From a virus, in IMG/VR virus record IMGVR_UViG_3300042691_011352, positions 1 to 35,234 of that record: DNA of 35,234 bases; one strand, given 5' to 3'. How positions within the stretch are numbered: position 1 is the stretch's first letter; each line of letters begins with the position of its first letter. Positions 3 through 32,897 of the stretch are shown here, in pieces. The position numbers were made by a program, and so were the translations under genes. The notes beneath the pieces are model-generated. The model searched no databases and was not told the origin of the DNA. It was given only the letters and a program-made list of their open reading frames with translations.

Positions 3-1505
3 TACGGTTTGGTTATGGATCTTGAAGGTGTCATTAAGAATGAAAACGATCTTATTCGTAGATATCGAGAAGTTGCTCAATACAGCGACTGCGATTCTGC
101 TATTGAAGACATCATCAATGAATCTATTGTAGCCGACGAAAAAGAACTACCTGTTGAGATTATTCTCGACAACCTTAATGTTAGTGATAACATTAAGAAA
201 AAAATTAAAGAAGAATTTGCTAATATTCTTAAACTATTAAAGTTTGAGGAAAAAGCACATGAAATTTTCCGCACATGGTATGTCGATGGAAGATTATATT
301 ACCAAATTCTAATTGACGAACAGAACATTAAAAGAGGTATTGTAGAATTACGCTACATTGACCCACGTAAAATTCGTCGTATTAAAAATATTAAAAAAGA
401 AAAGACACAACAAGGTGTCGAAGTTGTTAAAAAGATAGAAGAATATTATCTTTATAATGACAAAGGAATTACTGAGCAAACAACGCATGGTGTTAAACTT
501 GCTCTTGACTCAGTAGTTTATTGCTCTTCTGGAAATGTAGACCAGAACACTGGAATGACACTGTCTTATTTACATAAGGCAATTAAACCAGTTAATCAAT
601 TAAAGATGATTGAAGATGCGTTAGTTATCTATCGCATTTCACGTGCACCAGAACGTCGTATTTTCTACATTGATGTTGGTAACTTACCAAAATTAAAAGC
701 TGAACAATACGTGTCTGACATTATGAACAAGTTCCGTAACAAGATTGTTTATGATGCGACTACTGGTGAGACACGAGACGATCGTCGTCACTTATCAATG
801 ATGGAAGACTTTTGGATACCACGTCGTGAAGGTGGTAAGGGTACAGAAATTGATACTCTTCCAGGAGGACAAAATCTTGGTGACATTCAAGATATTGAAT
901 ACTTCCAAAACAAATTATATCACGCATTGAACGTACCTATTAGTCGTTTGCAACCGCAACAAGGTTTTAGTATTGGTCGTTCTCAAGAAATTAATCGTGA
1001 TGAGATTAAGTTTAATAAATTTATTGTTAGACTTCGTAAGAAATTTTCTATATTATTTACTAGTGCACTTCGTGTACAGTTAATTGCTAAAAATATAATT
1101 AGTCCAGATGATTGGGATGATATATCATCTGATATTAAATATGATTATATTGAAGATAATCATTATTCAGAATTAAGAGATTCTGAAATTATGCAATCAC
1201 GTATGTCACTGCTTCAAATTATTGACCCATTTATTGGTAAATATTATTCAATGGAATGGGCTAAGAAAAACGTGTTACGTATGGATAATGATGAAATGAA
1301 AGAGATTGAAAAACAGATTAAAAATGAGCAGGCAGAACTAATAGAATTTGCTCAACATCAAGGTGAGTTGCAAGTAGCACAACAGCAACCAATGATGGCT
1401 GTTCAACAAGCTGCACAACAAAACCAACAGGCAGTTGAACAAACACAAGATTCGACTCAACAAGAAACTGGCAACCCAGCGAAATCAGCAGGTTGGCCAA
1501 ATTAA
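3..1505 (+). CDS. 20: Portal protein gp20, 5'-truncated by window edge
   Basis: Portal vertex protein of a T4-like head: the dodecameric ring through which DNA is packaged and on which the prohead assembles. The reading frame is open to the window edge. The first visible residues align by eye with a point roughly 75 residues inside T4 gp20 (ELIDTYR.. of T4 versus DLIRRYREVAQ here), so the true start is upstream and the TTG at 9 is not a start. The FRTWYVDGRLYYQILID and LRYIDPRKIRRIK blocks and the IEYFQNKLYHALNVPISRL segment are characteristic. The C-terminus (about the last 50 visible residues) is a Gln/Ala-rich low-complexity tail. It is followed 12 bases later by a gp67-like gene, the T4 order. 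Confidence 0.95.
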   Translation, partial: YGLVMDLEGVIKNENDLIRRYREVAQYSDCDSAIEDIINESIVADEKELPVEIILDNLNVSDNIKKKIKEEFANILKLLKFEEKAHEIFRTWYVDGRLYYQILIDEQNIKRGIVELRYIDPRKIRRIKNIKKEKTQQGVEVVKKIEEYYLYNDKGITEQTTHGVKLALDSVVYCSSGNVDQNTGMTLSYLHKAIKPVNQLKMIEDALVIYRISRAPERRIFYIDVGNLPKLKAEQYVSDIMNKFRNKIVYDATTGETRDDRRHLSMMEDFWIPRREGGKGTEIDTLPGGQNLGDIQDIEYFQNKLYHALNVPISRLQPQQGFSIGRSQEINRDEIKFNKFIVRLRKKFSILFTSALRVQLIAKNIISPDDWDDISSDIKYDYIEDNHYSELRDSEIMQSRMSLLQIIDPFIGKYYSMEWAKKNVLRMDNDEMKEIEKQIKNEQAELIEFAQHQGELQVAQQQPMMAVQQAAQQNQQAVEQTQDSTQQETGNPAKSAGWPN

Positions 1506-1517
1506 TAGGAGAAAATT

Positions 1518-1940
1518 ATGAATGAAACAGTAATCCGCTTAGTAGATGCTATTAAATCTGGTGATGTATTAGAAACAGAAAAAGCATTTGCTGCAGCGAT
1601 GGCTGAAAAATTAGCACCAGCGATTGATAACTATCGCCAAGAAGTTGCTGCTAATATGTTTAAACCAGCTGCAGAAACTGTAGAAGAAGATGTTTATGAA
1701 GACGTAGAACTCTCACAAGAAGAGTATGACGCTCTTACTGATGATGAAAAACAAGCATTTACACTAGACGAAGGTTTAGGTAAATTTGTTGGTAAAGTAG
1801 CTAAAGGCACAGCAGATGCATTTGGTAATCTTATCGGTGGAGTTGCTAAAACCGTTGGTGCGATTCGTCAGACTCCAGCTGCAATAGGTTCTGCATATAA
1901 TCGTGGTCGTGCAGCTGCACAAAAATCAATAGACAAATAA
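1518..1940 (+). CDS. 67: Prohead core protein, gp67-like
   Basis: 140 aa. The N-terminus (residues 1-48: VDAIKSGD..., AMAEKLAPAIDNYRQEVAANMF) resembles T4 gp67, a small internal scaffold-core protein cleaved by gp21, and the position directly after gp20 is the T4 position. The middle (about 54-80) is strongly acidic. Unlike T4 gp67 (about 80 aa) it has a Gly/Ala/Lys-rich C-terminal extension (about 85-140). The stop overlaps the next start (TAATG), suggesting coupled translation. RBS AGGAG lies upstream. Assignment rests on position and N-terminal pattern. Confidence 0.7.
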   Translation: MNETVIRLVDAIKSGDVLETEKAFAAAMAEKLAPAIDNYRQEVAANMFKPAAETVEEDVYEDVELSQEEYDALTDDEKQAFTLDEGLGKFVGKVAKGTADAFGNLIGGVAKTVGAIRQTPAAIGSAYNRGRAAAQKSIDK

Positions 1941-2488
1941 TGCAATATAAAGATTTTATCAATAGTTTTAAAAGACCTGGTGTTGTAGAAAGCATTAGGT
2001 CTTATCTTCAGTTAATTGAAAAAACTGAAGAAGGAAAAATATTGATTAATGGTACAGAAACTAAATTTAGTACGATTGAGGAAGCAAGAGAATATATTAA
2101 ACAAGACTATACTAATCAACAATTAGAAGATAAAGCGTCTAAAGAATTATATGAAGAATTAGATGATACTATCATAGCAAATATTATTAAAGAATACCAT
2201 AATATTAAAGTTACAGATACGTTAATAGAATCATATAAAGAGTTTGCTTCCTCTCAAATTTTTAGTATCGATCCAGTTGTTCAAAAAATTCGTTCTATTA
2301 ATAAATTAGATCGTATAGTTGAAGGTAAACTTCATTATAAATTAAACGATGATACTGTTATAGCTATTAGTGACGCAACACAACAAAAGCTAAATAATCT
2401 ATTGGAAACGCATACAGATGTAATAGATTACATGCGAGAATCTAAAGATAATTTTATGTATGTAATTACAAAATTAGAGGAACATTAA
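1940..2488 (+). CDS. 68: Prohead core protein, gp68-position
   Basis: 182 aa, charged, mostly helical by composition, with no signal peptide, membrane segment or catalytic motif. It occupies the slot of T4 gene 68 (a minor prohead-core protein) between the gp67-like gene and the protease gene 21. T4 gp68 is about 141 aa, so this one is longer. The start overlaps the previous stop (TAATG). I recognise it mainly by position; the sequence alone does not prove the family. Confidence 0.5.
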   Translation: MQYKDFINSFKRPGVVESIRSYLQLIEKTEEGKILINGTETKFSTIEEAREYIKQDYTNQQLEDKASKELYEELDDTIIANIIKEYHNIKVTDTLIESYKEFASSQIFSIDPVVQKIRSINKLDRIVEGKLHYKLNDDTVIAISDATQQKLNNLLETHTDVIDYMRESKDNFMYVITKLEEH

Positions 2489-2489
2489 G

Positions 2490-2954
2490 ATGGCAATGCA
2501 ATTCTTAACACTTAAAAATACAAATCAGGAGACTGTGATTCATTTCGCATCAACTGCAGCAGAATCAGGAACTATCGCTCTGAACACACTAGCAGCTTCA
2601 ACACAAGCACTTATCGTAGGTGGTACACCTACTGTTGATATTGTTAAATGGTCAATTACTGGTGCTCTTGGTTCAAAAGTTACTATTACTAGAAATTCTA
2701 AACTTGTTATTGCTACTGCACCAGAAAATGCTCCGTATCTAGAAGATAATGCATGGGGTGTGCCTTTAAATATTGAAAACACCAGTGACATTGTTGTTGT
2801 TAATGGTGCAGCAACAGAAGTTACTGGTATTTTAGTTTTACGTAAACAAGCTGGTTGGGCTACTAAAGTTGAGAACGAAGTGTATGGTGCTTACGATGAT
2901 GTTACTCGTGTTGGAGCTTCTACTACACTAAGCGGATCTCCAGATAAGGTATAA
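2490..2954 (+). CDS. Unrecognised protein in head module, probably structural
   Basis: 154 aa, rich in Thr, Val, Ala and Gly, with alternating hydrophobic residues suggesting a beta-sandwich (for example TVDIVKWSITGALGSKVTIT and DIVVVNGAATEVTGILVL). No membrane segment and no enzymatic motif. It lies 1 base after the gp68-like gene and 2 bases before protease gene 21, in a position with no T4 equivalent. A head decoration or minor virion protein is a reasonable inference, not a demonstrated function. A second ATG two codons in (2496) is an alternative start. Confidence 0.6.
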   Translation: MAMQFLTLKNTNQETVIHFASTAAESGTIALNTLAASTQALIVGGTPTVDIVKWSITGALGSKVTITRNSKLVIATAPENAPYLEDNAWGVPLNIENTSDIVVVNGAATEVTGILVLRKQAGWATKVENEVYGAYDDVTRVGASTTLSGSPDKV

Positions 2955-2956
2955 AC

Positions 2957-3613
2957 ATGAAACTAATTAGAGAAGATTTAACGCATGATACTAAGTTTGT
3001 AGTTGAAGAAAAACTTGGTAAGAAAAAAGAATATTTTATTGAAGGTATTTTTCTTCAATCAAATTTGAAAAACCGTAATGGTCGTATGTATCCAGAAGAA
3101 GTTATGGATAAAGAAGTTGCTCGTTATATGCAAGAACAAGTTAAAACTAATCGTGCATATGGTGAGTTAGGTCATCCAGATACTCCAAGTATAAATTTAG
3201 ATCGTGTTTCACACATGATCGTTGATATGCGCAAAGAGGGTACTAACTATATCGGTAGAGCAAAAATCATGGAAACTCCAATGGGGCAAATTGCTCGTGG
3301 TCTATTAGACGGTGGAGCTAATTTGGGAGTTTCTAGTCGTGCACTTGGCACATTAAAAATGAATGAAGATGGTGTTAATGTTGTACAAGACGATTTTATG
3401 CTGTCCACTGCAGCTGACATCGTGGCAGACCCTTCCGCTCCCGATGCTTTCGTTCGTGGTATTATGGAAAGCAAAGAGTGGGTTTTCGTTGATGGAAAGT
3501 TCGTGGAACAACATATTGAGGAAGTCAAAAATTTTATAAAAAAGACTTCTTCTCGTCAGTTACAAGAAGCTAAAATTTTGGCTTTCAAAAAATACTTGAG
3601 TAAAATAAAATAA
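2957..3613 (+). CDS. 21: Prohead core protease gp21
   Basis: 218 aa serine protease of the T4 gp21 family, which cleaves scaffold and capsid precursors during head maturation. Diagnostic blocks are SNLKNRNGRMYPEEVM (about 35-50), GELGHPD with the likely catalytic His73, and GVSSRALG (about 124-131) carrying the likely catalytic Ser. STAADIVADPSAPDAFV (about 164-180) is another conserved stretch of the family. Neighbours gp20, 67, 68, 22 and 23 confirm the identity. The C-terminal 35 residues are Lys-rich, as expected for the part removed on self-processing. Confidence 0.95.
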   Translation: MKLIREDLTHDTKFVVEEKLGKKKEYFIEGIFLQSNLKNRNGRMYPEEVMDKEVARYMQEQVKTNRAYGELGHPDTPSINLDRVSHMIVDMRKEGTNYIGRAKIMETPMGQIARGLLDGGANLGVSSRALGTLKMNEDGVNVVQDDFMLSTAADIVADPSAPDAFVRGIMESKEWVFVDGKFVEQHIEEVKNFIKKTSSRQLQEAKILAFKKYLSKIK

Positions 3614-3615
3614 TT

Positions 3616-3623
3616 TATAAATA
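3616..3623 (+). promoter_or_regulatory. T4-type late promoter (TATAAATA) for gene 22
   Basis: Exact TATAAATA match, the T4 late -10 element read by RNA polymerase with gp55 and the gp45 clamp. It lies just after the gene 21 stop. Expected start near 3630 gives a leader of about 28 nt that includes AGGAGA before the ATG at 3658. Confidence 0.75.
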
Positions 3624-3657
3624 ACTTAATAGAACTTATCCAGTTAGGAGAACATAG

Positions 3658-4710
3658 ATGTCAATCGAACAAAAAATTGCGCAAATCTTGGCAGAGTCTA
3701 ATAAACTAGACGAATTCAAGGTGCACGGTAATGAAGGTGGTAGCAATTCTGCTACTGGTGGTGCAACTGCTGGTGATCAGTCACCTGTTCGCAAGAGCAA
3801 AGAAGCAGTTCCAGCACAAGGCGAAAACGAAAACGCTGATAACAAACGTAATAACGTTGATGATGAAGATGAAGCTGCAGAAGCTACATCTAAAAAATCT
3901 AATCCAGCTAATTCATCTGCTACATCTGGCGATCAAGAACCTGTTCGCAAAGGTGATACAGCAGTTAAGGGTGTCAAAGAAGACGTTGATGCTCTATTGA
4001 ATGGCGAAGAACTTTCTGAAGAATTCCGTCAGAAAGCTACTACAATTTTTGAAGCAGCTGTTCTTGCTCGTGTAAAAGAAGAAGTTGCTCGTATTGAAGA
4101 AGAATTTGAAGCTAAACTTGCAACGCAAGTTGCTGAAAATACAGAGGGTGTTGTTGAACAGGTTGATGGATATCTCGGTTACATTGCCGAGCAGTGGATG
4201 ACTCAAAATGAAATTGCCCTTGAGAATGGTATTAAGTCTGAAATCTTTGAAAGTTTCGTTGCTGGTATGAAATCTCTATTTGAAGAGCACTATATCGAAG
4301 TTCCTGAAGAACGTTTCGATGTGCTTGGTGAAATGGAAGAACATATCGGTGAACTAGAAGCTAAACTTAATGAACAACTTTCTGTAAACATTGAGTTGTC
4401 TAAAGCAATTGCTTGTGCACAACGTGCAGAAATCGTTAAGAAAATAAGTGAAGGTCTTTCTGATGTTGAAATTGAAAAATTCAATGCATTAGTTGAAGAA
4501 CTTTCTTATGAAGATGCGGAATCTTTCGAAACTAAAGTTAAGACTATCCGTGAAAATTATTTCACTAACAAAGCAAACCCAATCGTTGAATCTGTAGTTA
4601 CTGATGCTCCAGTTGAAATTTTAACTGAAGATGGTAAAGGTGCGAAACAAGTTGATCCAACAATGGCTGCTTATGTTACAGTCCTAAGCAAAAACAAATC
4701 TGTTAAATAA
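3658..4710 (+). CDS. 22: Prohead scaffold protein gp22
   Basis: 350 aa major internal scaffold of the prohead. Acidic and Glu/Lys-rich, with long predicted helices/coiled coil from about residue 110 (AAVLARVKEEVARIEEEFEAKLA, then MEEHIGELEAKLNEQLSVN). An ILAE motif at 10-13 matches the gp21 cleavage rule (L/I-x-E). Odd feature: the N-terminal linker carries an imperfect duplication, GDQSPVRKSKEAV (39-51) and GDQEPVRKGDTAV (91-103), each after a Ser/Thr/Ala-rich stretch. It is preceded by a late promoter and a good RBS and followed directly by the major capsid gene. Confidence 0.93.
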   Translation: MSIEQKIAQILAESNKLDEFKVHGNEGGSNSATGGATAGDQSPVRKSKEAVPAQGENENADNKRNNVDDEDEAAEATSKKSNPANSSATSGDQEPVRKGDTAVKGVKEDVDALLNGEELSEEFRQKATTIFEAAVLARVKEEVARIEEEFEAKLATQVAENTEGVVEQVDGYLGYIAEQWMTQNEIALENGIKSEIFESFVAGMKSLFEEHYIEVPEERFDVLGEMEEHIGELEAKLNEQLSVNIELSKAIACAQRAEIVKKISEGLSDVEIEKFNALVEELSYEDAESFETKVKTIRENYFTNKANPIVESVVTDAPVEILTEDGKGAKQVDPTMAAYVTVLSKNKSVK

Positions 4711-4722
4711 AGGAAAACTAAA

Positions 4723-6021
4723 ATGACAACACGTCAACAATTGATGGAAAAATGGGCTCCTGTCCTTGACCATGAAAGTGCTGCTCCGATTAAGGATCAG
4801 TATCGTAAAGAAGTAACAGCAGTTCTTTTGGAAAACCAAGAACGTGAAATGGCTAAACAACGTGAAGCGTTGTTCGAAGCTGCACCAGCTAATGCAGTTG
4901 GTTCATATGGTGATACAAATGGCTTTGCTAAGTTTGATCCAGTTTTGATCAGCTTGGTTCGCCGTGCAATGCCACAACTTATCGCTTATGATGTTGCTGG
5001 TGTTCAACCAATGACACAACCTACTGGTCTCATCTTCGCGATGAAATCACGTTATTCAACACAAGGTGGTACTGAAGCATTATTCAACGAAGCTGATACA
5101 GACTTCGCTGGTACAGGTACTCACTCTGGTGTTTATGACTTCGGTGGTTCTGAAACAACTGGTACTGGCTTAGCAACAGCTGATGGCGAACGTCTAGGTC
5201 AAGGTGGTACTGGTGACGGTTCTTTCGGTCAAATGGCATTCTCAATCGAGAAAACATCTGTAACTGCTAAGACACGTGCTCTAAAAGCAGAATACTCAAT
5301 CGAATTAGCTCAAGATATGAAATCTGTTCATGGTCTTGATGCTGAAGGTGAATTAAGCAACATTCTTTCAACAGAAATTCTTGCTGAAATTAACCGTGAA
5401 GTTATTCGTACAATTTACAAAACAGCTAAAGCTGGTGCTGCTGTTGGTACAGCTGCAGCAGGTACATTCGACTTAGATGTTGATTCAAATGGTCGTTGGT
5501 CTGTTGAAAAATTCAAAGGTTTAATGTTCCAAATCGAACGTGAAGCCAATGCGATTGGTCAACAAACTCGTAGAGGTCGTGGTAACTTCATCATTACTTC
5601 TGCAGACGTTGCATCTGCATTAGCAATGGCTGGTGTTCTAGACTACTCTTCTGCTCTAAACGGCATGAACAATCTAACTGTTGATGATACATCTACTACA
5701 TACGCTGGTGTATTAAACGGTAAATACAAAGTATATGTTGATCCATATACATCTAACGTATCTAACACACAATTCTTTGTTGTTGGTTACAAAGGTCAAT
5801 CAGCGTTTGATGCTGGTTTATTCTACTGCCCATACGTTCCTCTCCAAATGGTTCGTGCAGTTGATCCAAACAGCTTCCAACCAAAAATTGGCTTCAAAAC
5901 ACGTTATGGTTTAGCAGCTAACCCATTCGTTAATTTGGATGACGGTACAAGTGGTCAAGACAACTTGACAGCTAATGCTAACTACTACTACAGACGTGTT
6001 AAAGTTACTAACTTAATGTAA
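4723..6021 (+). CDS. 23: Major capsid protein gp23
   Basis: 432 aa hexamer-forming capsid protein of the T4 family (HK97 fold). The N-terminal propeptide contains the WAPVLDH segment and a gp21 cleavage site, LFE|AAPANAVG, after residue 52. Hallmarks follow: FDPVLISLVRRAMPQLIAYDVAGVQPM, the TGLIFAM(K)SRY segment, and the C-terminal KIGFKTRYGL.A.NPF block. It is shorter than T4 gp23 (521 aa), with a size typical of marine and freshwater relatives. No separate vertex-protein gene 24 follows, unlike in T4. A strong terminator 43 bases downstream ends the head module. Confidence 0.98.
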   Translation: MTTRQQLMEKWAPVLDHESAAPIKDQYRKEVTAVLLENQEREMAKQREALFEAAPANAVGSYGDTNGFAKFDPVLISLVRRAMPQLIAYDVAGVQPMTQPTGLIFAMKSRYSTQGGTEALFNEADTDFAGTGTHSGVYDFGGSETTGTGLATADGERLGQGGTGDGSFGQMAFSIEKTSVTAKTRALKAEYSIELAQDMKSVHGLDAEGELSNILSTEILAEINREVIRTIYKTAKAGAAVGTAAAGTFDLDVDSNGRWSVEKFKGLMFQIEREANAIGQQTRRGRGNFIITSADVASALAMAGVLDYSSALNGMNNLTVDDTSTTYAGVLNGKYKVYVDPYTSNVSNTQFFVVGYKGQSAFDAGLFYCPYVPLQMVRAVDPNSFQPKIGFKTRYGLAANPFVNLDDGTSGQDNLTANANYYYRRVKVTNLM

Positions 6022-14035: not shown

Positions 14036-16213
14036 ATGGAAATTAAATCTACTGATCTTTCTGCAAGACTGTTAGCTACCGAGAACATCTCTGTTCTACG
14101 TGCTAATACTCAAACTGCATCTTTTGATATCCAATCACGTGTTCTAACACTTCCTCTTTGGAAAGAAATGACTCCAGAAATTGAAGACATGTTAGTTGGG
14201 CACGAAGTTGGTCATGCTCTTTATACAGGTGAAAAATACATGGAGCCTATTAAAGAGAATCGTAAGATGATGTCTTATCTCAACATCCTAGAAGATGTTC
14301 GTATCGAAAAACTAATTAAACGTAAATATCCAGGATTACGTAAACGCATGAACGAGGGTTACAAACAACTCAACGATCGTGACTTTTTTGGCATCAGCAA
14401 GGTTCAATCTTTTGATGATTTATTATTGATTGACAAAATCAATCTATATTTCAAAGCTGGTTATAATTGTGGTGTGACGTTTAATCCAGAAGAACGCACT
14501 TTTATATATCGTGCAGAACACACAGAAACTGTTGAAGATGTTATCCAACTAGCTAAAGAAGTATATGCTTACTCCAAGGAACAATTGGAGAAAAAACTAG
14601 AAGAGATAAAAGAATCACTTGAAGAAGATCAAGAGGAACTTTCCCAAGATGAAAAACAGTCTACCTCTGGTAAGGGTGACTGGGATCCTGAAGAAGAATA
14701 TGATGAAGAAACGAATCATGGTATTCCTGATGTATTTGAAGAGCAATCTCCAGTTATGTCTGATGATATGGAAAAATTGCTTGAGTCTATTACTGAAAAA
14801 ACATTTAGTTCCAAACTTAATGAACTTGCTGACAGCAACACAACATATGTTTATTGGAAATTTGACAATGAATTTTACAAAGACCCAGTTATAGATTATA
14901 AACGTGTTTTAAATGAAACTGTTGATCCAGATGCATGGACTGAAGAACAGTATGAATACTACAGTGGTAGATATCGTAGTATGGAAGAAGATGAACGTTC
15001 TGCAGCAAAAGCCAAATACGATGCAGAATTTAATGCATTTAAGTCTGATTCTGCACGCACCGTAAATTATCTAGTGAAAGAATTTGAAATGAAGAAATCT
15101 GCTGATGTTTACAAACGTGCAAAGATTTCTAAAATTGGTTCTTTAGACATGCGCAAAATTTATGCATACACATTAAAAGACGATTTGTTTAAACGTGTTA
15201 CTATGTTACCACAAGGTAAAAATCATGGTATGGTGATGCTTGTTGATTGGTCTGGCTCAATGAACCATGTTCTTAAGTCTGTTCTAGAACAAGTTATTAA
15301 TCTTGCTATGTTTTGTCGTCGTGTGCAGATTCCTTTCCGTGTACTAGCATTTACATCTGACTATAATAAGGATCAAGATGATTGGGAAAAGTATCGTGCT
15401 TGGAGAGACATACATGATGAAAAACTCAAAAATTCTAAAGAAAAGTTTTTGAACACTGCAAGACAATTTAATTTGTTAGAACTGTTGTCTGACAAAATGA
15501 CTCAAGCAGAATTTAATATTATGTCTCGTCGTTTATTGCATTACAGTTTTATTTGGAACAAAGGTTATGGTACTGGTGGAACACCTTTAAATGAAGCATT
15601 GGCATGGATTTACGAAAATCTTGGTAAATTTATTAAAAAGAACAATCTACAAAAAACTACCTTTATCACTCTCACTGACGGTGAAGGTTCTAGTCTAAGT
15701 GGATATAATTCTTCTTTGGTGACTTCTGATTATGTTTGGGATGAAACAGAAAATCGTCATAAGTCTTTAAATATTAAAAACTTTATACTCGACCCTGTTA
15801 CACAAAAAACTTATTTTATTGATAGATATTCTAATCAACAAACTGAGACGATCTTAAATATGATTAAAGATCGTTATGGTGTTACTATGGTAGGTTTTCA
15901 TTTGACTGATAATCGTCGTCGTGATTTGGTTGGTGCAATTCGTGCTAATCTTCCAGATTATAACGGTAATATTGATTTGCTTATCGAGCAATGGAAGAAA
16001 CAATTTCGTGCAGATGGTGTTGCTGTAGTTAAAAACGCTGGACGTGACGAGTTGTATATCGTTCCACAATCATCTACACAGATTGACGAGGGTGATTTGA
16101 AGATCGATGCGAACAGTTCTTCTAAAATAATTGCAAGAAATTTTACAAAATTCATGAACGTTAAGAAGACTTCTCGTGTTCTTCTAAATCGTTTCGTGTC
16201 TCTAGTAGCCTAA
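14036..16213 (+). CDS. CobT-like protein: HExxH metallopeptidase-type domain plus VWA domain
   Basis: 725 aa, cytoplasmic (no signal or membrane segment). The N-terminal domain holds HEVGH (56-60) followed by NILEDVRIE (about 83-91), the layout of a gluzincin-type zinc site. A Glu-rich low-complexity linker spans about 185-235. The C-terminal half is a von Willebrand A domain with MIDAS motif DWSGSM (404-409) and a later ITLTDGEG strand. The next gene is a MoxR/CobS-type AAA+ ATPase, the usual partner of VWA proteins in MoxR-VWA systems (cobaltochelatase CobS/CobT is one branch). The HExxH domain, and no other cobalamin genes in the window, argue for protein remodelling or proteolysis rather than B12 synthesis; the target is unknown. 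Confidence 0.85.
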   Translation: MEIKSTDLSARLLATENISVLRANTQTASFDIQSRVLTLPLWKEMTPEIEDMLVGHEVGHALYTGEKYMEPIKENRKMMSYLNILEDVRIEKLIKRKYPGLRKRMNEGYKQLNDRDFFGISKVQSFDDLLLIDKINLYFKAGYNCGVTFNPEERTFIYRAEHTETVEDVIQLAKEVYAYSKEQLEKKLEEIKESLEEDQEELSQDEKQSTSGKGDWDPEEEYDEETNHGIPDVFEEQSPVMSDDMEKLLESITEKTFSSKLNELADSNTTYVYWKFDNEFYKDPVIDYKRVLNETVDPDAWTEEQYEYYSGRYRSMEEDERSAAKAKYDAEFNAFKSDSARTVNYLVKEFEMKKSADVYKRAKISKIGSLDMRKIYAYTLKDDLFKRVTMLPQGKNHGMVMLVDWSGSMNHVLKSVLEQVINLAMFCRRVQIPFRVLAFTSDYNKDQDDWEKYRAWRDIHDEKLKNSKEKFLNTARQFNLLELLSDKMTQAEFNIMSRRLLHYSFIWNKGYGTGGTPLNEALAWIYENLGKFIKKNNLQKTTFITLTDGEGSSLSGYNSSLVTSDYVWDETENRHKSLNIKNFILDPVTQKTYFIDRYSNQQTETILNMIKDRYGVTMVGFHLTDNRRRDLVGAIRANLPDYNGNIDLLIEQWKKQFRADGVAVVKNAGRDELYIVPQSSTQIDEGDLKIDANSSSKIIARNFTKFMNVKKTSRVLLNRFVSLVA

Positions 16214-16237
16214 GTTGTTGATTTTATGTAATAAAGA

Positions 16238-16260
16238 AACCTCCAAAAAGTTGGGGTTTT
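16238..16260 (+). terminator. Probable terminator after the VWA gene
   Basis: AACC-T-CCAA pairs with TTGGGGTT (one bulged T, loop AAAG), followed by TTTT. Weaker than the others. Confidence 0.5.
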
Positions 16261-16273
16261 CTGCAAAAAATGC

Positions 16274-16302
16274 TTGCCTTTTATTGCGATTTAAGGCATA
16301 AT
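16274..16302 (+). promoter_or_regulatory. Promoter before the MoxR/CobS-like gene
   Basis: TTGCCT (16274-16279), 17-bp spacer, CATAAT (16297-16302). The GCAAAAAATG stretch just upstream recurs at 17511 and 24370 in the same position. Start near 16309. Confidence 0.68.
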
Positions 16303-16342
16303 TATACTGTAATTTGATGATGAATTTATTTGGAGATATATG

Positions 16343-17485
16343 ATGGCAAAGATTGATTTGAATTTCCGTGAAACGTTTGAGTCCAAGCTGAATGAAATGT
16401 TCCCTGATGTTAATACTAAGGGTATTGTTGCACGACCACAGCTTGTTGAAGTTATGCAGACATTGAAAACAGACAAGTATCCTCTCTGGTTGATGAAGAC
16501 AAAGGTTGGTCGTGGTCTTTACGCAATTAACGGTGGTGCTGCAGTCGCTGTAAAAGAGGAAGCACCACAGATGTCATATAATGTTGATTATACAAACACC
16601 AGTTCTTTAATTCCTAAAAAAGACGAAAACTTTGTTCCATTTGGTAATTACAATGACCTAGAGAACATTATTAAGTCTAGTATTTTCTATCCTGTCTATA
16701 TTAGTGGTCCAACTGGTAACGGTAAGTCCACGATGGTAGAACAAATCTGTGCTAAGCACAATAAGCCACTTATCCGTGTCAATCTTAATATGATGACCGA
16801 TGAAGAACAGCTTATCGGTTCCAAGACTCTCGAAAACGGCAACGTAGAGATAGTCGAGGGTCCAGTGCTTATCGCTATGCGTACTGGCACTACTATTCTT
16901 CTCGATGAGATAGATGCTGGTGCAGCTAACACCCTGCTTTGTTTGCAACCTATTCTTGAAGGTAAACCATACTACTTTAAGCTGAAGAACGAAATGATTG
17001 TTCCAGCGAAAGGTTTTAATGTGATTGCCACTGCAAACACTAAGGGTAAGGGTTCAGACGATGGTCGTTACATTGGTACCAACGTATTGAACGAAGCATT
17101 CCTCGAACGTTTTGCAGTTACATTCGAACAGGATTATCCTAATTCAAAAATTGAAATCAAGATTATCAAAAACTTGATGGCAACTTTCGGATGTGTTGAC
17201 GAGGAATTCTCAGAAACTTTGGTCAAGTGGGCAGATGCAATTCGCAAGACTTATGATGATGGTGGTGTTGATGAAACAATTACGACTCGTCGTATGATCC
17301 ACATCGTTCGTGCTTTTGCGATATTCAAGAATCAGACCAAAGCAGTGGAACTATGTTGCAACCGTTTCGATGTTTCTACTAAGGAAGCATTCCTAAAACT
17401 CTACGATATGGTTGCAAATCCCCAGCCTGAACCTGTTGTAGAACAGGCTCCTCCTGCGGAAGCTAACGTAGAATCACCGTTTTAA
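16343..17485 (+). CDS. cobS: MoxR/CobS-type AAA+ ATPase
   Basis: About 380 aa. An N-terminal domain (about 25-66, including YPLWLMKTKVGRGLY) precedes an AAA+ core: Walker A GPTGNGKST (about 122-130), Walker B ILLDEID (about 185-191), sensor 1 TANT (about 230-233) and NVLNEAFLERF (about 248-258). It ends with a Pro/Glu-rich tail. Homologues in T4-like cyanophages and pelagiphages are annotated cobS (cobaltochelatase subunit), but the core equally fits MoxR chaperone ATPases that work with a VWA protein, here the gene just upstream. Two ATGs overlap (16340, 16343); GGAG at 16332 spaces better for 16343. It has its own promoter. Confidence 0.9.
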   Translation: MAKIDLNFRETFESKLNEMFPDVNTKGIVARPQLVEVMQTLKTDKYPLWLMKTKVGRGLYAINGGAAVAVKEEAPQMSYNVDYTNTSSLIPKKDENFVPFGNYNDLENIIKSSIFYPVYISGPTGNGKSTMVEQICAKHNKPLIRVNLNMMTDEEQLIGSKTLENGNVEIVEGPVLIAMRTGTTILLDEIDAGAANTLLCLQPILEGKPYYFKLKNEMIVPAKGFNVIATANTKGKGSDDGRYIGTNVLNEAFLERFAVTFEQDYPNSKIEIKIIKNLMATFGCVDEEFSETLVKWADAIRKTYDDGGVDETITTRRMIHIVRAFAIFKNQTKAVELCCNRFDVSTKEAFLKLYDMVANPQPEPVVEQAPPAEANVESPF

Positions 17486-21661: not shown

Positions 21662-22038
21662 TGACTCCTTTTGATTTCGTTAATGCTATAAATTTTACCA
21701 AACAAGATCTTTTTCAGGATCCCCAAGCGAACAAGGATTATGTTGCGTTTATTGTGAACAGAGGATTGTCATATTTTCCAGACACTGTTTTATACTCTAA
21801 CGAAATGAACCTACGTAATGAGATCCCTAAAGACTGGCAATTTTATTTTTTCCTAAATAGTGTAGTAAAAAGGAAAAGATTTAGCAAATGGCATAAAAAA
21901 GACGCTGAATCGGAACCTTTACGTCTTGTTATGGAATACTTTGGTTATTCTTCAGAGAAGGCAAAACAAGCGTTGACTATCCTTGGTGATGATCAACTTA
22001 CTATGATAAAAGAAAAACTATACAAAGGTGGAAAGTAA
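21661..22038 (+). CDS. 62: Clamp loader small subunit gp62
   Basis: 125 aa, shorter than T4 gp62 (187 aa). It is recognised by position (44-x-62-regA) and by the pattern TPFDFVNAINFTKQDLF, DYVAFIVNRGLSYFPDTVLYSNEMN and KDWQFYFFLNSVVKRKRFSKW, followed by a helical C-terminus (YSSEKAKQALTIL). It is the non-ATPase subunit contacting gp44 and the primer-template. The start overlaps the preceding stop and its own stop overlaps regA (TAATG), so the three are translated as a chain. Confidence 0.88.
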   Translation: MTPFDFVNAINFTKQDLFQDPQANKDYVAFIVNRGLSYFPDTVLYSNEMNLRNEIPKDWQFYFFLNSVVKRKRFSKWHKKDAESEPLRLVMEYFGYSSEKAKQALTILGDDQLTMIKEKLYKGGK

Positions 22039-22454
22039 TGACTACGGAGATTTACTATGACTGGACTCCAGAGTCGATGCTTGAAGTAAGTTTGCCAGAG
22101 CCAGATAACTTTTTGAAGGTTCGTGAAACACTTACCCGCATCGGGATCGCATCCAGAAAAGAAAACAAATTATATCAATCTTGCCACATTTTACATAAGC
22201 AAGGTAGATACTTCATTGTCCATTTTAAAGAGTTATTCGCTCTTGATGGAAAAGAATCGAATATCACTACTGGTGATATCGAAAGAAGGAATGCAATTGC
22301 AAGTTTATTGCAAGACTGGGAATTACTAAAAATTTTAGTTTCTAGTCAAGCTGAACCTAAAGCATCTCTTTCTCAAATTAAGGTGGTCTCTTATAAAGAA
22401 AAAGACCAGTGGGAATTGGTACCAAAATATAACATAGGAAAAAAGTCAAAATGA
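22038..22454 (+). CDS. regA: Translational repressor RegA
   Basis: 138 aa RNA-binding protein which in T4 represses translation of early replication mRNAs by binding near their start codons. It aligns closely by eye with T4 RegA (122 aa): FLKVRETLTRIGIA, LYQSCHILHKQGRYFIVHFKELF, a central RRNAIASLLQDWELLKIL and the C-terminal VVSYKEKDQWELVPKYNIG. It has an N-terminal extension of about 16 residues. Its own start region overlaps gene 62 and may be a target for autoregulation. The stop overlaps the next gene by 4 bases (ATGA). Confidence 0.96.
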   Translation: MTTEIYYDWTPESMLEVSLPEPDNFLKVRETLTRIGIASRKENKLYQSCHILHKQGRYFIVHFKELFALDGKESNITTGDIERRNAIASLLQDWELLKILVSSQAEPKASLSQIKVVSYKEKDQWELVPKYNIGKKSK

Positions 22455-22636
22455 TTAAACTTGAATTGAGTGTTGATGAAGTAAATATTATTCTTCGTTC
22501 TCTCGGTAAACATCCATTCGAAGAAATTGCCATGTTGATTTCTAAAATCAAACAACAAGGCGAACCACAAGTAGCTGAACTTATTAAACAACAAGAAGAA
22601 GCTGCAAAAGATAAAACATCAGAACAACCAGCTTAA
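22451..22636 (+). CDS. Small conserved phage protein downstream of regA
   Basis: 61 aa, helical. The N-terminal IKLELSVDEVNIILRSLGKHPFEEIAMLISKIKQQ pattern is seen in small T4-like cyanophage proteins of unknown function. The C-terminus is Gln/Glu/Lys-rich and unstructured. The start overlaps the regA stop (ATGA). The stop codon lies in the loop of a CAGCT/AGCTG hairpin (22629-22643) that begins a run of RNA hairpins. Confidence 0.7.
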   Translation: MIKLELSVDEVNIILRSLGKHPFEEIAMLISKIKQQGEPQVAELIKQQEEAAKDKTSEQPA

Positions 22637-22811
22637 TTAGCTGATAATAATTATCTGTCTTATAGAACACTAATGATTTTCATTAGGTGGTTTTTAGGAG
22701 TTTTCAGATAAGTAGTAATGTATGGGAAACTATACAAAAGGAATATGAGCCTCAAGTTAGACCTTTGACGAAAGTCATCTCTAACGATCTGAGTTTATAA
22801 ATTTTATAAAC
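22629..22811 (+). ncRNA. Candidate structured leader RNA upstream of the pqqA-like gene
   Basis: About 180 bases without a gene but dense in stems. CAGCT/AGCTG (22629-22643). TTATCTG (22651-22657) pairs with CAGATAA (22705-22711), enclosing CACTAATG/CATTAG-GTG (22668-22689, one bulge). TGTAT/ATACA lies near 22719-22736. A compound hairpin at 22751-22793 has CTCA/TGAG, GTTAGA/TCTAAC and a TGAC-GAAA-GTCA tip with a GNRA tetraloop. A 9-bp palindrome GTTTATAAA/TTTATAAAC (22793-22811) ends just before the RBS. No tRNA or riboswitch class I know matches. It may be a cis-regulatory RNA, a small RNA, or processed read-through from regA. Confidence 0.45.
22796..22803 (+). promoter_or_regulatory. Late-promoter-like box TATAAATT before the pqqA-like gene
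   Basis: One mismatch to TATAAATA, inside a palindrome. A start near 22810 would give a 16-nt leader containing AAGGAG, so the gene may be transcribed late on its own. Confidence 0.4.
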
Positions 22812-22825
22812 AAAGGAGAAACATT

Positions 22826-22897
22826 ATGTGGACAAAACCAACAGCAACTGAAATGCGTTTCGGTTTCGAAGTAACCATGTACGTAATGAACAAGTAA
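22826..22897 (+). CDS. pqqA: PqqA-like PQQ precursor peptide
   Basis: A 23-residue ORF with strong RBS AAGGAG (22813-22818, 7-nt spacing) and its own terminator. The peptide starts MWTKPTATEMRFGF and continues EVTMYVMNK. It matches the bacterial PqqA pattern (M-W-x-K-P, R-x-G-x-E-V-T-M-Y), including Glu15 and Tyr19, the pair that PqqE cross-links and from which pyrroloquinoline quinone is made. It has the same length as common PqqA peptides. No other pqq gene is in the window, so it would depend on host PqqB-E. Supplying substrate to host PQQ synthesis is inference; a decoy or inhibitor of PqqD/PqqE is also possible. Assignment from the peptide pattern is strong. Confidence 0.85.
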   Translation: MWTKPTATEMRFGFEVTMYVMNK

Positions 22898-22915
22898 TTG
22901 TTCACCGTATAAATG

Positions 22916-22941
22916 AAAAGGGGAGCTTAGCTCCCTTTTTT
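22916..22941 (+). terminator. Terminator after the pqqA-like gene
   Basis: GGGAGC/GCTCCC with a TTA loop, extended by A-T/G-T pairs, then six T. It lies 18 bases after the pqqA stop. Confidence 0.88.
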
Positions 22942-22958
22942 GTTTTAGTTTAAAAAAT

Positions 22959-22966
22959 ACTAAATA
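22959..22966 (+). promoter_or_regulatory. Late-promoter-like box ACTAAATA before the 48-aa gene
   Basis: TAAATAG core, like the boxes at 6098 and 23144, with two mismatches to TATAAATA. It follows the pqqA terminator; a start near 22973 would give a leader of about 29 nt with AAGGAGA. Confidence 0.45.
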
Positions 22967-23001
22967 GAATACAAACCCATTAATCCCAAAAGGAGATAAT
23001 C

Positions 23002-23148
23002 ATGGTTGATCAAAAAGAGTCACAAACTCTACAAGACAAACCTGAGACTATTAAAGAAATACCACAGCCACAAACTAATACTGTATGCAAACCAGAAGAT
23101 ATAGATTGTAATAAAAGATGGATTGATGCATTTAGTGACTGTGTATAA
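23002..23148 (+). CDS. 48-aa acidic peptide with three cysteines
   Basis: Short ORF with RBS AAGGAGA (22990-22996) before ATG 23002. The N-terminal 28 residues are polar and Gln/Pro/Thr-rich (a leader-like, disordered part); the C-terminal 20 hold Cys29, Cys36 and Cys47 and end in RWIDAFSDCV. No membrane segment. It lies between the pqqA terminator and the hsp20 leader; the last codons contain the late promoter of hsp20. Not recognised. The leader/Cys-core layout resembles many small peptides, but no modification enzyme lies nearby. Confidence 0.7.
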   Translation: MVDQKESQTLQDKPETIKEIPQPQTNTVCKPEDIDCNKRWIDAFSDCV

Positions 23149-23151
23149 ATA
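23144..23151 (+). promoter_or_regulatory. Exact late promoter TATAAATA for hsp20
   Basis: Perfect match overlapping the stop of the 48-aa gene. Start near 23158 places a pseudoknot at the 5' end of a leader of about 111 nt. Confidence 0.75.
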
Positions 23152-23171
23152 GTTTATCCTTTGGAATAAAA

Positions 23172-23232
23172 ACGTGGCTAGTCGGTACCACGTAAAAAGC
23201 CGACCACTTAATTGCTATGCCTTTGGGGTAGC
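23172..23232 (+). ncRNA. H-type pseudoknot plus hairpin in the hsp20 leader
   Basis: Stem 1 ACGTGG (23172-23177) pairs with CCACGT (23188-23193). Its loop holds GTCGG (23181-23185), which pairs with CCGAC (23200-23204). Loops are CTA, TA and A-rich AAAAAG, ideal for an H-type pseudoknot. A hairpin GCTATGCC-TTT-GGGGTAGC (23214-23232, imperfect) follows, then 36 unpaired-looking bases with the RBS and ATG. It is a cis-acting leader candidate; the layout recalls the T4 gene 32 leader pseudoknot and tmRNA PK1, but no tmRNA body is present. Confidence 0.55.
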
Positions 23233-23268
23233 AAATTTTTAATAAACTCGCTTAATAGGAGAAATGAT

Positions 23269-23781
23269 ATGACAAAACTAAGTCCATTCACATTCAACGA
23301 TCTTAAAGATCTAGAAAAATTCTTTGTTGGTTTCGATGACCAATTTAATCGTCTAGCTAGAATGCATGACGATTTAACAAAGAATGTTCCAAATTACCCA
23401 CCATACAACATCAGAAAAGTAGAAGACAACAAGTACATTATTGAACTTGCAATCGCTGGCTTTTCTAAACAAGAAGTTGAGATTGAACTTCAAGATGATA
23501 AACTTGTTGTTAAGGGTAATGCTACTGAAGATAAAGAAACCGATTGGATTTACAAAGGTATCGCTACACGTAACTTTACTCGAACATTCGCATTGAATGA
23601 CCAAGTAGAAGTGCGTGGTGCAGAAATGCTAAATGGTATGCTAAAGATTTTCTTGGAGCGTATTATTCCTGAGCATAAGAAACCTAAGAAGATTGATATT
23701 AGTGACGAGCCAAATACAGTATCTGAGTTTGCTGCTAATAACAAATCGCTTCTGCTTGAAGAAATAGAAGATAGAATGTAG
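23269..23781 (+). CDS. hsp20: Small heat-shock protein Hsp20
   Basis: 170 aa ATP-independent chaperone. The alpha-crystallin domain spans about 41-133 (PPYNIRKVEDNKYIIELAIAGF, then VEIELQDDKLVVKGNA, IATRNFTRTFAL and MLNGMLKIFLERIIPE, each a typical strand block), with a C-terminal IDI motif (142-144) that could dock in a neighbouring subunit. T4-like cyanophages commonly carry hsp20. ATG 23269 is preceded by AGGAGA; the upstream leader is structured. Neighbour genes suggest late expression from 23144. Confidence 0.93.
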   Translation: MTKLSPFTFNDLKDLEKFFVGFDDQFNRLARMHDDLTKNVPNYPPYNIRKVEDNKYIIELAIAGFSKQEVEIELQDDKLVVKGNATEDKETDWIYKGIATRNFTRTFALNDQVEVRGAEMLNGMLKIFLERIIPEHKKPKKIDISDEPNTVSEFAANNKSLLLEEIEDRM

Positions 23782-30958: not shown

Positions 30959-31210
30959 ATGAAAGTTTTAAAATTTTACGCAGAGTGGTGCGCACCATGT
31001 AAAGGATTAACTATGATTATTAATGGTGCTAAAGATAAGATTAATATTCCTATTGAAGAAGTTAATATTGATGATAATGTTTTTATGGCAACAGAATTTA
31101 ATATTCGTTCTGTTCCAACACTGGTTATTGTTGATGATCAAGAAAATGAAATTAAACGACACACTGGTATGTTGAATGAAACTCAATTGCTAGAATTTTT
31201 ACAAGTTTAA
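30959..31210 (+). CDS. Thioredoxin
   Basis: 83 aa, a short thioredoxin-fold protein. Active site WCAPC (10-14), the conserved cis-Pro segment RSVPTLVI (about 51-58) and C-terminal helix ETQLLEFL. It lacks the N-terminal strand/helix of host thioredoxins (about 105 aa), a size common in phages. It could serve a redox partner such as ribonucleotide reductase or the neighbouring oxygenase; not decidable here. Starts 1 base after the oxygenase stop; GGAG upstream. Confidence 0.92.
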   Translation: MKVLKFYAEWCAPCKGLTMIINGAKDKINIPIEEVNIDDNVFMATEFNIRSVPTLVIVDDQENEIKRHTGMLNETQLLEFLQV

Positions 31211-31211
31211 T

Positions 31212-32897
31212 ATGAATATTCTTGGAATATATGGTGGTTTTGATTGGGATGCTAATAAGTTTTGGCATCCCAATAGATTAAATTACACAACATGGGTGCA
31301 TGATGCTGGTGCCACATTGTTTTGTAGTGGAAAACATATACATTCTGTTTCAGAAGAAAGATTAACTGGTATAAAATATGATGGTAACTATCCAATAAAC
31401 TCAATTAAACAGTGTTTAGATATTGGTGGTATCTCTGAGGTTGATATAGATGTTGTTTGTATACCAACACAGTGTATTGAGATATTTTATGAACAGTTAG
31501 AACTTGGTATAGTGGAAAAAACTATAAAACGAATGTTTCCTAATGCAAAATTAGAAATTTATTCTCATCATTTATGCCATGCAGCTTCTTCTGTGTTTAC
31601 CAGTAATTTTAATGATGGTGTTATTATTACGCTAGATGGTGCTGGCTCTTTAGCCTTAGATTTACACAATAGAGTTTTTGAACATGAGTGTAACACTATA
31701 GGATATTTTGACAAAAGTAAAAAACAATTTAAGCTATTTGTTGGGGATAGATTGGTCAACAGGTTTGGAGATTACTACCATAGGAATTCTTTTAAAGCCT
31801 ATGTTACCAAACAGAATATACCAGAAGAAACATGGGATGATATAATACCAGAATCAGTAGATGGTAAAGTTATGGGGTTATCTAGTTATGGTAAAGCCAG
31901 CAAAATACAACGATATAAAAAATCTGATAAATCTTGGGGTGGCGTTCCTTATGTAATGTTTGATCTTAATGACATAGATACATCTTTATCTCCAGAAGAT
32001 CTTGCTGCAACATGTCAAAAAACATTTGAGTCTTCGATGCTTGATTATATCAAAATGTTATCTGAAATGGATTATTTAAAATCAAACGTCTGTTTTGCTG
32101 GTGGTGTTTTTCTAAATGTATTGTCTAACACAAACATCATCAGAACAGGTATATTTGATAATGTTCATATACCACCATTTACTAATGATACTGGTTTAAA
32201 TTTTGGTGCTGCAGCTTATCATGCATTTAAACAGGGGTTTGATATTGAAGTGCCTGTTAATATAGCACTTCTTGGAAAGAAATATTCTGATGAAGAAATT
32301 GGATTGGAAATAAACAAACACCCAGTGAATGCTACATATTATAAGCAGTCTGATTTAGTATTCAAAGATGTTGCTAATAAACTACACCAAAATAAAATTG
32401 TTGCATGGTTTCAAAATAGATCTGAGGCTGGACCAAGAGCATTAGGTGCTAGATCTATTTTAATGAGTGCTCGTAAAAAAGAGCACAAAGATATTTTAAA
32501 TACAAGAGTTAAACATAGAGAATACTGGAGACCATTTGCTGGAATTATTTTAAAAGAATATGTTGATGAATATTTTGAAGATGCGTTTGAAACACCATAT
32601 ATGTTATATTCATTAACAGTTAAAGAAGATAAACGTGGTGTTATCCCTGCCATAACCCATGAAGATAATAGCTGTAGAATACAAACAATTACATATGAGC
32701 AGAACCCAGAAGTGACACAATTAATAACTGAGTATCAAAAACTATCAGGTGTACCAGTTATTTTGAACACTTCATTTAATGATAATGGTAAACCGATAGT
32801 TGAAACACCAACTCATGCAATTGAAGCATTTTTGAAAATGGATATTGATTATTTGGTAATTGGAAATTATATTGTAAATAAAAAGGATATTAAATGA
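31212..32897 (+). CDS. Carbamoyltransferase (NodU/CmcH/TobZ family)
   Basis: 561 aa O-carbamoyltransferase using carbamoyl phosphate and ATP. The N-terminal Kae1-like domain has HDAGATLFC (about 30-38), SEERLTGIKYDG, HHLCHAASSVF (H119, H120, H123: metal site) and GVIITLDGAGS; next FAGGVFLNVLSN and PFTNDTGLNFGAAAY. The C-terminal domain has QNRSEAGPRALGARSIL and HREYWRPFAGIIL. Complete, no frameshift. Overlaps uvsX by 4 bases (ATGA). Family members modify sugars, antibiotics or Nod factors. In a phage the target might be a nucleotide, glycan or small molecule; unknown. Confidence 0.93.
   Translation: MNILGIYGGFDWDANKFWHPNRLNYTTWVHDAGATLFCSGKHIHSVSEERLTGIKYDGNYPINSIKQCLDIGGISEVDIDVVCIPTQCIEIFYEQLELGIVEKTIKRMFPNAKLEIYSHHLCHAASSVFTSNFNDGVIITLDGAGSLALDLHNRVFEHECNTIGYFDKSKKQFKLFVGDRLVNRFGDYYHRNSFKAYVTKQNIPEETWDDIIPESVDGKVMGLSSYGKASKIQRYKKSDKSWGGVPYVMFDLNDIDTSLSPEDLAATCQKTFESSMLDYIKMLSEMDYLKSNVCFAGGVFLNVLSNTNIIRTGIFDNVHIPPFTNDTGLNFGAAAYHAFKQGFDIEVPVNIALLGKKYSDEEIGLEINKHPVNATYYKQSDLVFKDVANKLHQNKIVAWFQNRSEAGPRALGARSILMSARKKEHKDILNTRVKHREYWRPFAGIILKEYVDEYFEDAFETPYMLYSLTVKEDKRGVIPAITHEDNSCRIQTITYEQNPEVTQLITEYQKLSGVPVILNTSFNDNGKPIVETPTHAIEAFLKMDIDYLVIGNYIVNKKDIK

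Follow-up and report, generated by a model that had tools for sequence, protein, structure and literature searches.

Synthesis of the cofactor PQQ uses up one PqqA peptide per PQQ; the Pqq enzymes act as catalysts. Cyanophage psbA, encoding the D1 protein, is an auxiliary metabolic gene with which a phage supplies a fast-consumed part of the energy metabolism of its host. The PqqA peptide is cross-linked by PqqE with PqqD (PMC7678222, PMC9851590). In viruses, PqqA together with methanol dehydrogenase was described by Coutinho et al. 2020 (PMC7678222) in VP_266, a T4-type methylophage population of Lake Baikal, and a study of reservoir sediments (PMC13188868, 2026) lists virus-encoded pqqA, pqqE and pqqD. 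Papers on OM43 phages discuss auxiliary genes and do not report pqqA in the main text; in the open-licence literature we found no report of pqqA in isolates, of its breadth, of its lone state or of the conservation of Glu15 and Tyr19. Phage pqqA as such is already known, a point on which the original prediction, which took such a gene to be unusual, is corrected; the breadth, lone state and conservation described below appear to be new.

The DNA analysed here (the window) comes from a marine phage; as an IMG/VR virus record it comprises 35,234 bases, with 34% G+C. Its gene set is T4-type, with gp20, gp22, gp23, a UvsW-like gene, clamp, clamp loader, regA, ligase and UvsX; among cultured phages, the major capsid protein nearest to the window gp23 is that of the OM43 phage Melnitz (64%). 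The gene pqqA (22826..22897, + strand) is located among phage genes inside the phage genome (gp20/gp22/gp23, clamp loader, regA).

The 72 bases (23 codons) of pqqA are translated into MWTKPTATEMRFGFEVTMYVMNK, followed by a stop. This peptide scores 40.7 bits against the Pfam PqqA family PF08042 (cut-off 21.1, E = 2.2e-10) and 39.3 bits against the NCBIfam equivalog TIGR02107 (cut-off 20). A six-frame PqqA search of the whole window record had the pqqA ORF as its single match (E = 7.8e-11), and the same search on 14 control genomes produced no match. The Glu-x-x-x-Tyr pair, the PqqE cross-link site, is present as Glu15/Tyr19; the peptide size and the short intact ORF with a ribosome-binding site fit the PqqA norm (about 22-24 aa). 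PHROGs has no family for the window PqqA. Judged by its sequence, the ORF encodes a true PqqA, with a likeness beyond what chance would give.

A Shine-Dalgarno sequence AAGGAG (22813..22818, + strand) is situated 7 nt before the pqqA ATG, and an intrinsic terminator (22915..22940, + strand) follows directly after the gene; RNA 22898-22950 folds at -18.7 kcal/mol (z = -4.4), which no shuffle matches. The original prediction had read these features correctly: the 23-codon ORF, the strong Shine-Dalgarno sequence with 7-nt spacing, the gene's own terminator, the M-W-T-K-P start with Glu15 and Tyr19 and, as both profiles now confirm, the PqqA identity. The leader between an upstream 61-aa ORF and pqqA (22637..22825, + strand) has a folding z of -2.8 and contains TATAAATT at 22796-22803. 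This sequence, 30 nt before the pqqA ATG, was considered as a T4-type late promoter and rejected, being kept in only 2 of 31 T4-type contigs; a search for a sigma-70 promoter-like site around pqqA found none. A preQ1-II Rfam match at 22904-23004 was rejected as well (28 bits versus a gathering threshold of 47, E = 0.77).

The slot occupied by pqqA is anchored on the left by the regA-type translation repressor gene (22038..22454, + strand; phrog_242, E = 3.5e-60) and on the right by an hsp20-type small heat-shock protein gene (23269..23781, + strand), the Hsp20 identity being a reading of the sequence and of the likeness of its leader to that of annotated cyanophage hsp20, with no profile behind it. 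The 61-aa ORF (22451..22636, + strand) forms the left border of the slot and is kept in relatives with and without pqqA. Close relatives have the order regA, 61-aa ORF, pqqA, hsp20, and other relatives keep the slot, with both anchors, and lack pqqA; in other T4-type phages pqqA is found beside gp23 or elsewhere. Among 80 loci chosen by regA similarity, pqqA is near regA in 17 of the 45 whose regA identity is 78% or more and in none of the 35 below this level. When 25 longer relative records were searched whole, pqqA was absent from 24, the sole carrier being the one already known. L319 (174 kb) is an example of a T4-type relative lacking pqqA. This patchy occurrence among close T4-type relatives, a second point on which the original prediction is amended, suggests a cassette that comes and goes.

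Several other features of the window were observed. Between pqqA and hsp20, a 48-aa ORF (23002-23148) beginning MVDQKESQTLQDKPETIKE... has its own Shine-Dalgarno sequence and is 77% identical in L314. A conserved non-coding leader precedes hsp20 at 23140-23262 (in relatives, L316:6585-6732, L337:6430-6586 and others); in some T4-like phages it precedes a small ORF instead of hsp20, and a part of it is also upstream of hsp20 in Prochlorococcus phage P-HM2. It combines the invariant CTCGCTTAATAGGAG with two hairpins, a CUC/GAG one across the Shine-Dalgarno sequence and another with five covarying pairs, and has no match in Rfam; it is a candidate RNA thermometer or riboswitch. Farther away, a Nol-like carbamoyltransferase (31212-32897; phrog_1601, E 2e-124) adjoins a thioredoxin-like ORF (30959-31210), and a CobT-like/peptidase protein (phrog_459) is paired with a MoxR-type AAA protein (PF07728) at 14036-17485.

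We compared the window region with 50,697 phage records at the DNA level. Matches were confined to the pqqA stretch and came from nine records of Methylophilales isolates, namely MEP301, MEP401 and MEP402 (Zobellviridae), Venkman, P19250A and four Melnitz records (Kyanoviridae), as well as from an uncultured phage of Manatee Spring. The tblastn searches with the window, Pseudomonas and Klebsiella PqqA returned the same phage set; beyond it, only two records, both named 'Acinetobacter phage', were matched, and pqqA was found in no further true phage isolate of the 50,697 records. Every Methylophilales isolate here means every one returned by the searches; MEP431-434 and HIM624-A, for example, were not among the matches. 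Annotation shows no gene at pqqA in five of seven phage records examined; the other two, the Manatee Spring phage and Melnitz-1, have a gene annotated there on the opposite strand. Since 72 bases are below the usual limits of gene callers and PHROGs has no family for it, pqqA was missed even in the well-studied OM43/LD28 phages.

One of the two 'Acinetobacter phage' records was examined (CAKLQF020000010.1, L393, named Acinetobacter phage MD-2021a): a pqqA-like stretch is followed by pqqB, pqqC, pqqD and a radical-SAM gene. At least part of the record therefore resembles a bacterial chromosome, and we rejected these matches as phage pqqA. The record appears to be a case of host DNA mis-binned as virus, and the same origin could be proposed for other carriers. 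However, the window pqqA lies between phage regA and hsp20, pqqA is carried by nine isolate records, and neither PqqC nor PqqD was found in 49 records (48 long or complete carriers and the window record). Mis-binning is refuted for the window and the isolates, and as a general account of phage pqqA it is hardly credible.

PqqA was confirmed in all 48 of these long or complete carrier phage records. None of the 48 has PqqE above the cut-off (three have only weak matches of radical-SAM type) or a PQQ alcohol dehydrogenase; in this search for partner genes the window record itself was covered for PqqC and PqqD. With neither PqqC nor PqqD encoded in its record, the window pqqA lacks the usual pqqBCDE neighbourhood at least as far as these two; such adjacency is not required, and extra host copies stand alone too. 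The precursor is carried and never the enzymes, a pattern that would also suit a decoy, a short peptide that competes with host PqqA for PqqD/PqqE and lowers PQQ synthesis, e.g. redirecting carbon or electrons. Against such a decoy, the collection includes phages of the PQQ-makers Pseudomonas and Klebsiella, none with pqqA, and the window peptide differs from a host PqqA in one residue; evidence from the reactive residues is given below.

In the hosts, pqqA is multiplied as well. We counted 2-10 pqqA copies per genome in Methylophilaceae-type genomes (G042-G059, L131-L239) versus at most one pqqC; searched with the PqqC model, 15 of 18 such genomes gave a match, a single one in each. Two marine genomes of this type, of 1.2-1.3 Mb, have three pqqA each. 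These counts agree with the 3-12 pqqA per Methylophilaceae genome, with the remaining pqq genes single-copy, reported earlier (PMC4109929). The hosts raise pqqA dosage without raising that of the remaining pqq genes; their phages add just one further pqqA. Of the cellular genes found, the closest to the window pqqA (63 of 66 nt identical) belongs to a Methylophilaceae-type Nitrosomonadales MAG of marine origin. This match, the nine Methylophilales phage records and the Melnitz-like gp23 all fit a methylotroph host, as had been predicted.

At least 120 IMG/VR contigs match the PqqA pattern. By dividing the 43 contigs of one fully counted codon subset by the sampled share, 0.15 (ACG copies) x 0.125 (all), the number of IMG/VR carriers was extrapolated to ~2,300 (rough range 1,000-6,000), provided that the listed matches are a fair sample. 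Linked by at least two shared proteins, carrier contigs form 15 groups, a count that fragments limit both ways. At eight loci (L010, L015, L021, L025, L026, L030, L037 and L041) the phage PqqA is of a divergent type, with the ending ...RLGFE[VI]TMYFK.. or one much like it; this type may mark another PQQ-making host.

As a search pattern can itself force conservation, the IMG/VR search was repeated without any constraint on codons 15 and 19. Among the matches listed, all 104 distinct DNA copies, from related and unrelated phages, retain both Glu15 and Tyr19, with Tyr19 encoded by TAT in 59 and by TAC in 45. The conservation that the original prediction called for is therefore present. One would expect a blocking peptide to have one of its two reactive residues lost or replaced; since both are kept, the decoy, which had been offered as the alternative reading, is disfavoured, and we think it improbable.

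Aligned copies of the phage gene have an identity of 0.84 in the coding region and of 0.28-0.30, the chance level, in the 100 bases on each side. A stretch of about 70-90 bp common to otherwise unrelated phages might be thought to act as DNA, as an integration (att) site or another shared element rather than a gene. Yet variation is concentrated at third codon positions (0.345 vs 0.05-0.08), a stop follows codon 23 in 128 of 128 aligned copies, and T4-like phages are among the carriers; the att-site reading is refuted by this coding signature, and a role at the DNA level has next to no probability left.

Phage pqqA is under purifying selection over 111-156 distinct copies: pN/pS is 0.38 at codons unconstrained by the first pattern (binomial P about 1e-35, disjoint pairs) and 0.11 over the core type, the latter value being partly helped by the search pattern. 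A Shine-Dalgarno-like motif is located upstream of 127 of the 128 phage copies, and a terminator is found within 80 nt downstream in 75 of 174 copies versus 3 of 174 shuffled ones. These data bear on the idea that pqqA is a hitch-hiking host fragment of no use to the phage, an idea that the 63/66 match to a cellular copy and the patchiness among close relatives could be taken to favour. Selection on the peptide, homology ending at the gene borders with the Shine-Dalgarno motif intact, and presence of pqqA in several phage lineages argue against it, as does the distance to the nearest cellular copies found (median identity 0.894, none identical); we give it little credence.

With the PqqA identity, conservation, selection, lone state, repeated occurrence and host gene dosage as observed, we consider it likely that the window gene is a true PqqA acting as a stand-alone auxiliary metabolic gene of T4-like and other tailed phages of Methylophilaceae (OM43/LD28-type), supplying the consumable of PQQ synthesis; the profiles, the invariant residue pair and the host evidence all support the initial interpretation of a phage PqqA in a methylotroph. 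Carrier phages would in this way probably keep host methanol oxidation running during replication. Expression, processing by host enzymes and benefit to the phage are predicted steps. The infecting phage would make the 23-aa peptide; host PqqD would present it to host PqqE for the Glu15-Tyr19 cross-link; host PqqB, PqqC and a protease would then complete PQQ, for use by the methanol dehydrogenases on which the cell lives. Phage PqqA may make up for the host PqqA that disappears when transcription of host genes ends, or may raise PQQ flux; the simplest reading is that an infected cell would run short of precursor once host transcription stops or demand rises. Because PqqA is the only component consumed and PqqB-E persist as catalysts, a phage need bring only the precursor. 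As counterpoints to the auxiliary role, PQQ synthesis is not necessarily limited by PqqA in OM43, where several copies are already present, the gene is patchy in close T4-type relatives, and it has no recognised promoter.

The peptide could also be processed by PqqE/D for another product, such as a signal, an antimicrobial or another radical-SAM product; for a RiPP family annotated as PqqA, a metagenome study (PMC11118758) offers speculation about a part in phage-host interactions. However, the phage sequence throughout is that of a host-type PqqA, and every cultured carrier infects Methylophilales, whose energy metabolism runs on PQQ enzymes; we see only a slim prospect for such a product.

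Supply of PqqA for PQQ synthesis remains our preferred role and, if true, phages steer marine and freshwater methanol oxidation via one consumed part of a cofactor pathway. The chances are about even that nearly all phages of obligate Methylophilaceae methylotrophs have lone pqqA as an auxiliary gene that annotation overlooks, their lineages having repeatedly acquired the precursor only and leaving the remaining steps to host catalysts; the dosage of the precursor peptide would then be a point at which methanol oxidation of infected cells is controlled. Venkman and Melnitz infect H5P1, MEP phages infect FZCC strains and P19250A infects IMCC19250; with these cultured phage-host pairs the auxiliary-gene idea is directly testable. 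The OM43 medium of PMC9004378 contains 1 nM PQQ. The case of pqqA also suggests looking for other very short precursor genes in phages.

The window PqqA shares with cellular Methylophilaceae PqqA the length of 23 aa, the MWTKP start, the GFEVTMY core with Glu15/Tyr19 and the VMNK end, and the hosts too have stand-alone extra copies; unlike these, the window copy is phage-borne, in the regA-hsp20 slot, with its own terminator and in a record without pqqC or pqqD. VP_266 (PMC7678222) is likewise a T4-type Methylophilaceae phage with PqqA, and the same role was proposed for it. It was found once, with methanol dehydrogenase in the same contig, whereas the 48 carriers here are without PQQ alcohol dehydrogenase; beyond VP_266, we find pqqA in many phage types and demonstrate residue conservation and selection. 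The sediment study (PMC13188868) has pqqA among virus-encoded genes as well, framed as phosphate solubilisation, not methylotrophy. As with cyanophage psbA, the phage would supply a fast-consumed part and not the whole machine; there the part is a photosystem subunit, while PqqA is a ribosomal peptide precursor consumed as a substrate.
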